DNA from: Eubacteriaceae bacterium
GTDB taxonomy: Bacteria; Bacillota; Clostridia; Eubacteriales; Anaerofustaceae
DNA length: 48,069 nucleotides
Direction: 5' to 3'
Assembly (NCBI GenBank): GCA_017531485.1
Contig: JAFXKY010000028.1
Coordinates: forward strand, 1-48,069
A program made the position numbers and the translations under genes. The notes beneath the pieces are model-generated. The model had not been told where the DNA came from, made no database searches, and saw nothing but the letters and a program-made list of their open reading frames with translations. Positions 8,434 through 27,425 of this stretch are shown here, piece by piece. Positions within the stretch are counted from its first letter, which is position 1. The number at the start of each line of letters is the position of its first letter.

Positions 8434-8748
8434 TTAACTGATTTGTTGTTTATTTTTCCTCTCCGCCCATCTGACCTTTGCGGAAACGGAGCGATTGTAT
8501 CCGACAACGCGGAGCCTTTCTTTCTGTGTTGCAAGCCCTGTCTGACGACAGAAATCTTCGTATGTGCGTTCTTTTTCCTTTATGCGCTGAGATACCTTTG
8601 AAAAACGCGCCTGCGCTGCATCGCTCAGACCTTTTATTTCATTCAGAGCAACCGCCTCGCGGCGGTCCTTTCGTTTTGTTGTGTTGTGCGCATGATCTGT
8701 ATATCTTGTAATTTCCCGCAGTTTATGATATATTGTGTTCACGGGCAA
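8434..8748 (-). pseudogene. Phage minor capsid protein-like C-terminal fragment
   Basis: The readable part is a basic helical region: LSDAAQARFSKVSQRIKEKE, TYEDFCRQTGLATQKERLRV and a KVRWAERK end. It resembles the C-terminus of MuF/minor capsid proteins of Firmicute phages, but the match is weak by eye. The upstream end of the frame runs into the repeat-like leader beginning near 8728, so the apparent start codon is almost certainly not the original one. A terminator and then the scaffold-like fragment follow on the same strand, consistent with a head-gene block cut on both sides. Confidence 0.4.
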
Positions 8749-8879
8749 CCGAATAAATTTTATGGAGATGCTGTTTGAAAAAATTTAGCAGATTACAAGA
8801 GTCGGTAATGTAAGCAGGAGCTTGCAAAACCCACCCGCATGACTCCTGCTGTTTTGAGTCATTTACACAGAGAGGAAAA
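8728..8879 (+). promoter_or_regulatory. Conserved structured leader of the first GNAT gene (copy 1)
   Basis: This stretch is closely similar to 25216-25375, which also precedes a GNAT gene. Shared parts include CCGAATAAATTTTA, GGAGATGCTGTTTG and CAGATTACA. Two hairpins are conserved: TTACA/TGTAA and, further on, GCAGGAG (8815-8821) with CTCCTGC downstream. The second copy keeps the larger stem with changed bases on both sides. It matches no riboswitch class I know, and could also be simply part of an old duplication. Confidence 0.5.
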
Positions 8880-9544
8880 ATGAAAAATTTACAAAATGAC
8901 TACATCATCCGCCTTGAAACAGAAAATGATTACCGCGAGGTGGAAAACCTTACAAGAGAAGCATTCTGGAATGTGTATAAGCCGGGATGCGACGAACATT
9001 ATTTCGTGCATATGATGAGAAACCATCCGGATTTTATTCCGGAACTTGCCTTCGTTATCGAAAAGGACGGCAAATTATTGCAAACATCATGTACACAAGA
9101 TCATGGCTTGAAGACGAAGAAGGAAACCGTAAAGAGATACTTTCCTTCGGGCCCGTATGCGTTTTGCCGGAATATCAGCGACTGAAGCTTGGAAAGAAGC
9201 TTATCGCACATTCATTTGACGTTGCGAGAAAGATGGGGTATGACGTAAATATCAACTTCGGCAACCCGCCGAATTATATTTCAAGCGGATTTGTCAGCTG
9301 CAAAAAGAAGAATGTGTGTTACGGAAGGGAAGACAACTACCCTTCAGCACTTCTTGTATGCGAGCTTGTTCCGGGAGTACTTGACGGAAAGAAGTGGAAG
9401 TATATCGAAAGCTCAGCCGCGGAATGTTGTGAAAATGTCGAAGCTGTTGAAAAATTCGATGCCACATTCCCGCCGAAAGAAAAGAAATGGCAGCCGAGCC
9501 AGGAAGAGTTTTATATTTACAGTCATTCGTCAGTTGTGAGGTAA
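8880..9544 (+). pseudogene. GNAT-family N-acetyltransferase, frameshifted
   Basis: The 5' frame starts at ATG 8880 with GAGAGG upstream and reads YIIRLETENDYREVENLTRE. The acetyl-CoA-binding part continues in another frame from about 9075 (VCVLPEYQRLKLGKKLIAHS, the R/Q-x-x-G-x-G/A loop region). Comparison with the copy at 25376 shows one base missing in the codon after GACGGC near 9070; adding it restores DGKIIANIMYT. The whole protein would be about 221 residues. Either the gene is dead, or the deletion is a sequencing error, since everything after it is well preserved. Substrate unknown. Confidence 0.8.
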
Positions 9545-17351: not shown

Positions 17352-17509
17352 ATTTTCTCCTTTGGTTATATCGTTCACTACAGCGGTTGTGGTTAAAGCC
17401 TGAGGAATCCCACCCTCACGTGGTTCTCACGCGACCTAACGCGCCTCCTGCGACGCTTTTTAACGCTCGGACTGCGGCTGTGCGGAAGTATCATTGTCCC
17501 TCGTGCGGG

Positions 17510-25130: not shown

Positions 25131-25215
25131 AATCCATCATATTCATCAATCATACTTCCCGTAATATTCCACAGCTTCCGATACCGAAACTTTAAATATT
25201 ATTGAGAATATATGA

Positions 25216-25375
25216 ATTTATGCTATATTGTATTTACGGGACAGCCCGAATAAATTTTACGGAGATGCTGTTTGCAAAAATTCAGCAGATTACAGGAATT
25301 GGTATTGTAAGCGGGAGGCTTGCAAAATCGTTCCGCATGCCTCCTGCCATCAGGTCATTATGCATGGAGGTAAAA
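25216..25375 (+). promoter_or_regulatory. Conserved structured leader of the second GNAT gene (copy 2)
   Basis: This is the counterpart of 8728-8879. The larger hairpin is GCGGGAGGC/GCCTCCTGC here against GCAGGAG/CTCCTGC there, keeping pairing while bases differ. The TTACA/TGTAA hairpin is also kept. A GGAGG ribosome site follows. Confidence 0.5.
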
Positions 25376-25699
25376 TTGAAAGAACAAATCAACTTAAACA
25401 ATGACTACACTATCCGCCTTGAAACAGAAAACGATTACCGCGAGGTGGAAAACCTTACAAGAGAAGCATTCCGGAATGTATATAAGCCGGGATGCGATGA
25501 ACACTATTTCGTGCACATGATGCGTTCCCATCCGGATTTTATTCCTGATCCGGCATTTGTCGTGGAAAAGGACGGCAAGATCATCGGAAATATCATGTAT
25601 ACAAAGGCATGGCTCAGAGATGAAGAAGGAAACTTAAAAGAGATCCTTTCCTTATTTGTTTTTCATGATGCAGGATGGAGAAAAGATACCGTTTTCTGA
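25376..25699 (+). pseudogene. GNAT-family N-acetyltransferase, 3' truncated copy
   Basis: The frame starts at TTG 25376 behind GGAGG (an ATG at 25364 is also in frame) and reads DYTIRLETENDYREVENLTR onward, about 85% like the gene at 8880. This copy is intact where that one is frameshifted (DGKIIGNIMYTKAWL). After EILSL near 25652 it joins unrelated sequence (FVFHDAGWRKDTVF) and stops, losing the acetyl-CoA-binding core. The two copies are thus damaged at different places. The 100 bp following hold no gene. Confidence 0.8.
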
Positions 25700-26097: not shown

Positions 26098-26501
<404 letters not shown>

Positions 26502-27425
26502 ATGCCAAGAGGAAGAAAAATTTATGGCGAATTAAGAGCGGAAGAACACAAAATCACAGATGCTGCAGAAGAGTTTTTCAGGCACAATGAAGCAAAGGGA
26601 CTTGCGGAAGAAAGTAAAAAGACGTACATACGGCACGTCAATGCTTTTATAAAGTGGGCGGAGGAGTATCTCACACTGGATGAGATAACTCCGAAGGTGA
26701 TTGATGAATACCTTGCTTTTAAGATGAGTAAAGGAATAAAAGCTGTATTAGTCGCAACTGCAATGAGGCATCTGAGGAGATTCTTCAATTTCTGCAACAG
26801 CAGGGGATATATGGAGAAGATAGATATTACTATCCCCAGATATGAAACTACACTCAAAGAGCCTTACACCGACAAAGAAATGAAAAGACTTCTTGCCAAG
26901 CCGCGGAGCGGCAACTGGGTAGAGCTGAGAAGCTGGTGTATGATAAACTATTTTTATGCAACCGGGCAACGCCTGAGCACAGTTCTTAACATAAAAGTGA
27001 AGGATCTTGATCTTACGGCCGGAAAAGTCAGGCTTGTGTGGAACAAAGACAAGATTCAGAAATGGATGCCCTTATCTTCAACTATAGTGAAGATCCTTAG
27101 AGAGTATATCCGGCTTTCTGATCTTTCAGAGGAAGATTATCTGTTTCCGGAATATGAAGGAGGTCAGTTGAATTCCAGAAGTGCGCAAAATGCTATTGCT
27201 AAGTATAACAAGAAAAGAGGAGTGAAAAAGACATCCATCCACCTGTTCCGGCACACATTCGCCAAGAACTACATAATAGCCGGCGGAAGCCCTGCTAAAC
27301 TACAATATCTTCTCAACCATAAGACGGTCGATATGACTATGAAATATGTGAATCTCTACGGATCGGAAGTTGCGACGGATTACGATCTCTTTAATCCGCT
27401 TGATAACTTAAAGAGAAGAATATAA
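26502..27425 (+). CDS. Tyrosine recombinase/integrase of the island
   Basis: This 307-residue integrase has a SAM-like core-binding domain (GLAEESKKTYIRHVNAFIKW, near residues 33-53) and a catalytic domain with Arg in TGQRLSTVLNIKV, the HLFRHTFAKNYI box, LNHKTVDMTMKYV with the second His, and the nucleophile Tyr in MKYVNLYG. The catalytic set appears complete. The ATG lies directly after the repeat, and its ribosome site (GGAGGGG) is inside the former terminator loop. It probably drives integration at tRNA-Leu; no excisionase is obvious next to it. Confidence 0.93.
   Translation: MPRGRKIYGELRAEEHKITDAAEEFFRHNEAKGLAEESKKTYIRHVNAFIKWAEEYLTLDEITPKVIDEYLAFKMSKGIKAVLVATAMRHLRRFFNFCNSRGYMEKIDITIPRYETTLKEPYTDKEMKRLLAKPRSGNWVELRSWCMINYFYATGQRLSTVLNIKVKDLDLTAGKVRLVWNKDKIQKWMPLSSTIVKILREYIRLSDLSEEDYLFPEYEGGQLNSRSAQNAIAKYNKKRGVKKTSIHLFRHTFAKNYIIAGGSPAKLQYLLNHKTVDMTMKYVNLYGSEVATDYDLFNPLDNLKRRI

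Follow-up and report, generated by a model that had tools for sequence, protein, structure and literature searches.

Two leader copies and their GNAT genes

The window, that is, the whole 48,069-nucleotide stretch of DNA that was analysed (contig JAFXKY010000028.1 of the Eubacteriaceae bacterium assembly GCA_017531485.1), contains two GNAT genes, each preceded by a copy of the same leader at 8728-8879 (copy 1) and 25216-25375 (copy 2). This duplication had been described in an earlier note made from the sequence alone, and it was borne out by a BLAST search of 8700-8885 against the window's own genome (2.17 Mb), which returned 25217-25347 at 84% identity (E 4.6e-33) and no further convincing copy. 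All leader and GNAT features given below lie on the forward strand.

Both GNAT genes are damaged. GNAT copy 1 (8880-9544) is split by a one-base frameshift near codon 65 into frames 8880-9185 and 8987-9544, the second of which matches Pfam Acetyltransf_1. This frameshift could be an assembly error. GNAT copy 2 (25376-25699) has a TTG start and is truncated, being GNAT-like for its first ~94 codons only. Comparison of the GNAT protein with solved structures gave weak matches only (4zbg, 4rs2). Just downstream of copy 2 are a tRNA-Leu gene (26098-26185) and a phage-type integrase gene (26502-27425), which may mark the attachment-site end of an integrated element. Elsewhere in the window, a pemK RNA family match was seen on the reverse strand at 17399-17497 (35.1 bits, gathering score 34.8).

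The leaders share one order of features. The predicted promoter of copy 1, TTGTAA-17 nt-TATATT at 8706-8734, has a consensus score of 9/12, and that of copy 2 is TTGAGA-16 nt-TATATT at 25202-25229; the score was at least 8 of 12 in 46 of the 47 leaders examined. Where the transcript is expected to begin there is a small hairpin, CGG-GCAA-CCG (8742-8751) in copy 1 and CGGG-ACAG-CCCG (25237-25248) in copy 2. A 5' stem of at least 3 bp was present in 45/47 leaders, with a sequence that varies by lineage (CAAGCC/GGCTTG, CGGGA/TCCCG, CAGACC/GGTCTG). Next comes a short upstream ORF (uORF) with its own ribosome-binding site, GGAG, at 8764-8767 and 25261-25264. Both uORFs start with TTG. The first, at 8775-8813, encodes MKKFSRLQESVM and was identified by pattern match and a reading-frame test, and the second, at 25272-25310, encodes MQKFSRLQELVL and was identified by pattern match.

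Four pairing segments could be assigned from the end of the uORF to the GNAT start. Segment 1 (8799-8815; 25295-25312), placed by folding and covariation, is the end of the uORF and is the partner of segment 2 in the OFF state. Segment 2 was assigned on the same grounds in copy 1 (8814-8837), where it consists of the GCAGGAG arm (8814-8820) and the following strand that pairs with segment 1. In copy 2 (25311-25334, with the arm GCGGGAGG at 25311-25318) it rests on folding and the covariation of helix 2:3. Segment 3, CTCCTGC at 8843-8849, has segment 2 as its ON partner and the GNAT ribosome-binding site as its OFF partner. Its counterpart in copy 2, CCTCCTGC at 25340-25347, pairs with the Shine-Dalgarno sequence GGAGG in the minimum-energy fold. 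Segment 4 is the GNAT ribosome-binding site itself: GAGAGGA at 8870-8876, recognized by its position before the ATG at 8880, and GGAGG at 25366-25370, which is sequestered in the fold of the free RNA.

Relatives of the leader were sought through the GNAT protein because a BLAST search of 101 related genomes with the whole leader gave, outside the window's genome, only short chance-like fragments. Contigs were scanned with the C-terminal part of GNAT copy 1, and the best 80 of 134 relatives, mostly from gut Clostridia of herbivores, were kept as loci. Seven had too little upstream DNA, leaving 73 that were readable. A complete leader was found in 46 of these (44 by pattern, plus L060 and L078), a cut or degenerate one in three (L059, L107, L111), and other upstream DNA, without such a leader, in 24. 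Two family-level genomes carry a more divergent version (L035, L036). At two loci, L038 and L039, the DNA upstream of GNAT has a much shorter uORF (MLPIL and MLPVM, each followed by a stop), and at L037 and L038 a terminator-like hairpin with a T run precedes GNAT, which suggests a transcription-type attenuator for the same GNAT gene. At L105, an insert of ~125 bases with internal repeats separates segment 3 from the GNAT ribosome-binding site.

The upstream ORF and the alternative helices

The uORF, with its TTG, upstream GGAG and stop, was recovered in 48 leaders by a pattern ending in TTTG. GGAG lies 7-9 nt before the TTG in all pattern-matched leaders; the conservation of the TTG is partly by construction since the pattern itself demands TTTG. 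The uORF has 11 codons in 44 leaders, 12 in three (including both window copies) and 18 in one, so its length changes by whole codons. The 29 distinct 11-codon uORFs were used for a reading-frame test, in which the synonymous fraction of differing codons was 0.226, compared to 0.110 and 0.108 in the other frames. Codon 8 begins with GA (Glu or Asp) and codon 10 with GT (Val) in 29/29 of them. Codons 2-7 vary freely, as in MKNTNLLEIVL, MKRNNTLEIVL and MIKYVSMDPVC, the last of which shows that the peptide end is retained in divergent relatives. An overlapping ATG/GTG frame, GGAGAATGCTG..., was rejected as the uORF: its start lies one base after the GGAG, and downstream indels break it. The earlier note had singled out the single-stranded GGAGATGCTGTTTG as most conserved. 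It is the best conserved stretch of the leader because it holds the uORF ribosome-binding site and the TTG start.

In the four-segment layout predicted by folding, helix 1:2 spans the end of the uORF, helix 2:3 is the large hairpin and helix 3:4 hides the GNAT ribosome-binding site. The uORF stop codon sits in stem 1:2, which ties the uORF end to the strand after a GGGAG motif. This motif also pairs with the downstream CUCCU (2:3), which can in turn pair with the GNAT ribosome-binding site (3:4).

The helices were examined in an alignment of 38 leaders (37 distinct), derived from 50 complete leaders after near-identical rows and L073 and L105, which have inserts, were dropped. Pairing of the large hairpin is kept while its bases change, just as the earlier note had proposed from the two window copies: across the 38 relatives, its eight pairs are formed in 96.3% of cells. 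With shared ancestry uncorrected, helix 2:3 had 11 two-sided changes, compared to 2.5 in shuffles, and its covariation score was reached by 0/500 shuffles. The two-sided changes fall in 3/8 pairs; 99/500 shuffles had at least as many such pairs and pair types. Helix 1:2 had two-sided changes in 7/15 pairs, and its covariation score, likewise uncorrected for ancestry, was also reached by 0/500 shuffles.

A swap test, in which shared ancestry was again left uncorrected, compared each leader's own segments with those exchanged between leaders. In 14 leaders, helix 1:2 had -16.5 kcal/mol with its own segments and -11.1 with swapped ones, and helix 2:3 had -14.8 and -11.4; for both, 0/20000 permutations were as good. 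Helix 3:4 was the weakest (p 0.01 with 14 leaders, 0.07 with eight). Helices 1:2, 2:3 and 3:4 are mutually exclusive, with 3:4 more weakly supported. The large hairpin is also more stable than shuffles in both window copies (8810-8852, z -4.4; 25306-25349, z -4.6). The complete leader of copy 1 (145 nt) is no better than shuffles (z -0.52), and that of copy 2 has a z of -2.0. From a MAFFT alignment, RNAalifold retrieved no more than six pairs, all of helix 2:3, because the consensus is obscured by alternative structures and by segments that shift in position; the named helices and the swap test were used for this reason. In the linker between segment 3 and the GNAT ribosome-binding site, GTCA is almost invariant and is often the loop of a short ATTG/CAAT stem.

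One proposal of the earlier note, that a second hairpin, TTACA/TGTAA, is retained, had to be given up, since at least four of its five pairs form in only 4/38 aligned leaders, two of which are the window copies. The conservation of TGTAA has another cause: these letters contain the stop codon of the uORF and are a pairing partner of segment 2. The earlier note had also overlooked the uORF that begins with TTG, helices 1:2 and 3:4 as alternatives to the large hairpin, and the further target genes described below.

Conserved structure with covariation is also what a riboswitch or another metabolite-binding RNA would display. We regard this reading as highly unlikely here. A search of Rfam 15 with both copies, up to E 10, gave one chance purine match only (E 4, other strand) and no T-box match, in keeping with the earlier view that no known riboswitch or T-box is involved. 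Moreover, the best conserved stretch is a ribosome-binding site with its start codon, and the covarying stem includes the end of a reading frame. The leader is probably not a ligand-binding RNA, and the most likely sensor is a translating ribosome and not an aptamer.

The effect of a ribosome on the leader was modelled by folding the RNA with pairing forbidden under a 30-nt footprint that was shifted codon by codon. The mean accessibility of the GNAT site in 48 GNAT leaders was 0.25 in the free RNA, 0.63-0.69 with codons 5-8 in the P site, 0.32 at codon 9 and 0.16 at codons 10-12. The same edge was seen in 13 RsgA leaders (0.56 at codon 8, 0.25 at codon 9), and a softer one in 11 RNHCP leaders (0.51 falling to 0.36) and in another 11 GNAT leaders (0.58 falling to 0.45). 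This edge falls at codon 8, the codon for the conserved acidic residue. Over 49 leaders from every target class, accessibility at codon 8 minus that at the stop was 0.26, compared to -0.02 in 392 spacer shuffles, and an on-minus-off difference above 0.2 was found in 26/49 leaders compared to 18/392 shuffles. The optimal stall codon shifts within 6-8 when a shorter or longer footprint is assumed, and the folding switch is absent or reversed in some leaders (L097, L036, L153, L162).

The window copies differ in this model. Copy 2 still switches, with 0.40 in the free RNA, 0.72 at codon 7 and 0.20-0.21 from codon 10 on. Copy 1 is predicted to be open without a ribosome (0.85) and at every ribosome position through codon 9, as would be expected of a leader with a decayed off state.

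Genes that follow the leader

Covariance-model searches, a check that the earlier note had proposed for clostridial genomes, found the leader before GNAT genes, genes for an RNHCP-domain protein (Pfam PF12647) and genes for a second copy of the ribosome-assembly GTPase RsgA (PF03193). Further copies, paired stems and a link to the downstream genes were all found, where the earlier note had named their absence as grounds for doubt. Its claim of a cis-acting RNA therefore stands, and the RNA is widespread and tied to the genes that follow it. Model R1, built from 38 leaders, had matches at E<=0.01 in 15/67 genomes of the order and 19/391 of the class. A second model, R2, built from 34 leaders, had matches in 31/398 genomes of the phylum and 45/391 of the class; members of the R2 alignment match R2 by construction since it was partly built from R1 matches.

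The DNA downstream of 81 inspected matches was tested for the three proteins. With E-values that mix R1 and R2, 35 of the 36 matches at E<=1e-5 precede a target (22 GNAT, 8 RNHCP, 5 RsgA) and one runs into a contig end. At E<=1e-4, the numbers were 42 targets among 45 matches, one contig end and two other genes, and at E<=0.01, all 81 places, they were 57 targets, 23 other genes and one contig end. R2 added 24 new places below 1e-4, of which 21 are followed by a target, two are not and one lies at a contig end. Wherever another gene followed, the match was discarded as false (L137, L152, L154, L155, L168-L170, L172-L174, L176, L178-L180, L182-L185, L200, L202, L203, L205, L210). Those at L152, L154 and L155 are chance resemblances, in which coding-sequence starts read like TKIYVLDTNVLLHDP.

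A short ORF with its own ribosome-binding site lies upstream of the regulated gene in all three target classes. The peptides have in common the motif [DE]-x-[VA] at about codons 8-10. Its conservation among model matches is partly circular because the models include those bases, and exceptions among these matches include MKRTKTQGVVNREVCIH, MTKYFQSVLVR, MKNKNVNTVIVF and MKKLTGRKVTVT. The RsgA and RNHCP leaders often start with ATG and have longer frames, which extend across segment 2 (MSKNSTLEIVANREVDTK, MYKNRKTDLAAGREVCAE, MLKQNKAESVVNREVCKI). The uORF stop may lie on either side of segment 2, which would fit stalling within the frame rather than at the stop.

At least two RsgA-family genes were found in eight of nine genomes, which had been picked for having matches. 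A leader match lies immediately before the longer paralogue (~355-368 aa) in eight of nine cases, compared to 0/10 for the other RsgA-family genes of those nine genomes. In the exception, L234, the RsgA gene lies just upstream of an RNHCP gene that has its own leader. The window's genome also has an RsgA paralogue of the longer type, on contig C80, with the uORF MKKTYGKTEIVF. RsgA acts on the small ribosomal subunit. GNAT and RsgA are fused in one protein, WP_075681267.1 (L215, 2986-4566), from a Roseburia sp. 831b plasmid, with Acetyltransf_1 at 40-121 and the RsgA GTPase at 266-447 by Pfam; no leader match was found directly upstream of its gene. The shared leader, this fusion and the L234 neighbourhood suggest that the RsgA paralogue, RNHCP and GNAT may act together.

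For RNHCP, there was no credible match among solved structures, and the literature searched held no biological paper, only two unrelated ones on chemistry. The leader also precedes two plasmid-borne GNAT genes, in Pusillibacter faecalis and Selenomonas ruminantium. A weak leader match (E 0.048), with a uORF read by eye, was obtained for an RNHCP gene on a scaffold labelled as gut 'phage'. On two unannotated gut 'bacteriophage' scaffolds, L219 and L221, an RNHCP gene follows a similar leader with the uORFs MKLNTLTLERVA and MKSKTMLLERVR, each ending in a stop. These scaffolds may be mobile elements or mislabelled bacterial DNA.

The identity of the target genes bears on two further explanations. 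The same leader-peptide device might sense a shortage of an amino acid or charged tRNA, as in trp-type attenuation, and not an antibiotic, since in the folding model any slow codon within 5-8 would open the GNAT site. We consider this unlikely: the leader peptides contain no runs of a single amino acid, the residues of codons 2-7 are free to vary, and GNAT, RNHCP and RsgA are not amino-acid biosynthesis genes. Alternatively, the leader might be a protein-binding site through which, for example, RsgA or RNHCP controls its own mRNA, as the ribosome-linked proteins among the targets might suggest. This is the least probable of the explanations weighed, because a single leader stands before three unrelated protein families and the conserved uORF would be left unexplained.

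A probable leader-peptide attenuator and its possible signal

The architecture, the codon window and the choice of targets argue strongly for a leader-peptide (ribosome-mediated) translation attenuator of ermC layout, probably one that reports translation inhibition. In the mechanism that we propose, a ribosome would start at the TTG and translate the uORF of 11-12 codons. On a free run to the stop, segment 2 would be covered or held by segment 1, and segment 3, with its anti-Shine-Dalgarno CUCCU, would pair with the GNAT ribosome-binding site and keep GNAT off. If a ribosome stalled with about codon 8 (the conserved Glu/Asp) in its P site, segment 1 would be covered and segment 2 free, the 2:3 hairpin would form, and the GNAT ribosome-binding site would open. 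The most likely cause of the stall would be a ribosome inhibitor that acts together with the nascent [DE]-x-[VA]. The device would thus report translation stress and turn on proteins that relieve it, namely GNAT, the second RsgA and the RNHCP protein.

These parts differ in how firmly they can be put. The uORF is conserved, helices 1:2 and 2:3 covary and the target genes are shared, as judged from sequence comparison. The ribosome switch and its codon window are supported by folding. We infer the stalling, the inducer and the protective role of the targets.

In the ermC/ermCL layout, a leader ORF lies over segment 1, the OFF state consists of 1:2 and 3:4, the ON state of 2:3, and the downstream Shine-Dalgarno sequence is hidden. 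The leader described here resembles it in the ORF over segment 1, the alternative 1:2 plus 3:4 or 2:3 pairing and the hidden Shine-Dalgarno sequence. It differs in having [DE]-x-[VA] at codons 8-10, a TTG start in most GNAT leaders and other targets, none of them an rRNA methyltransferase. Attenuators of the ermC/ermCL type are mentioned in the available part of PMC12121999. According to the same part, toiL, which lies before topAI-yjhQ in E. coli, has a uORF that responds to several antibiotics acting on the ribosome and governs a ribosome-binding site hidden further downstream. Such control of a hidden site is predicted here from folding. YjhQ is a distant relative of the window GNAT (21% over 135 aa, pair E 6e-13). 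By that account, however, the toiL system is proteobacterial and its first gene encodes a topoisomerase inhibitor. Similarity between the leaders is not expected.

Two other systems have comparable targets. The available part of PMC6310831 describes hflXr/rli80 of Listeria, in which HflXr, a GTPase homologue, is under leader-peptide attenuation and gives antibiotic resistance. As far as that account goes, both cases place a homologue of a housekeeping ribosome GTPase behind a leader peptide, but Listeria has a transcription terminator, an RLR peptide and an HflX-type protein, whereas the present leader has a translation-type switch and a small-subunit RsgA. In Actinobacteria, the antibiotic-responsive WhiB7/WblC resistome includes the RsgA paralogue SCO6149 and GNATs, and whiB7 itself has a uORF attenuator (available parts of PMC7157823 and PMC10727445); in Streptomyces, the WblC regulon contains an RsgA paralogue and many GNATs (PMC7157823, same part). 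The RsgA paralogue and GNATs are thus common targets on the evidence of those parts, which describe one transcription factor for all genes; here, in contrast, each gene has its own cis leader. With HflXr, toiL and WblC as analogues, an antibiotic or translation-stress signal would be the likeliest input.

The literature searched held no description of this leader. Three motif-discovery papers, in the portions available and supplements aside, make no mention of a GNAT- or RsgA-linked uORF (PMC8632094, PMC11109978, PMC6429828). The type of mechanism is known; what appears to be new is the peptide that acts as sensor, the cassette shared between genes, and the targets.

A broader proposal is more tentative and leans slightly to the doubtful side. 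Clostridia and their relatives may have an undescribed cis-encoded translation-stress regulon, in which a new arrest motif, [DE]-x-[VA], would stall inhibited ribosomes ~8 codons in and induce a second RsgA, the RNHCP zinc protein and GNAT, which together would shield the small subunit from a natural antibiotic or repair it. With HflXr and toiL, leader peptides earlier exposed unknown antibiotic-response genes. In the present case, three gene families, including the unstudied RNHCP, are tagged by the same leader cassette. The functions of the GNAT, the extra RsgA and the zinc protein thereby become a directly testable question, and the leader would offer a sensor peptide for drug screening.
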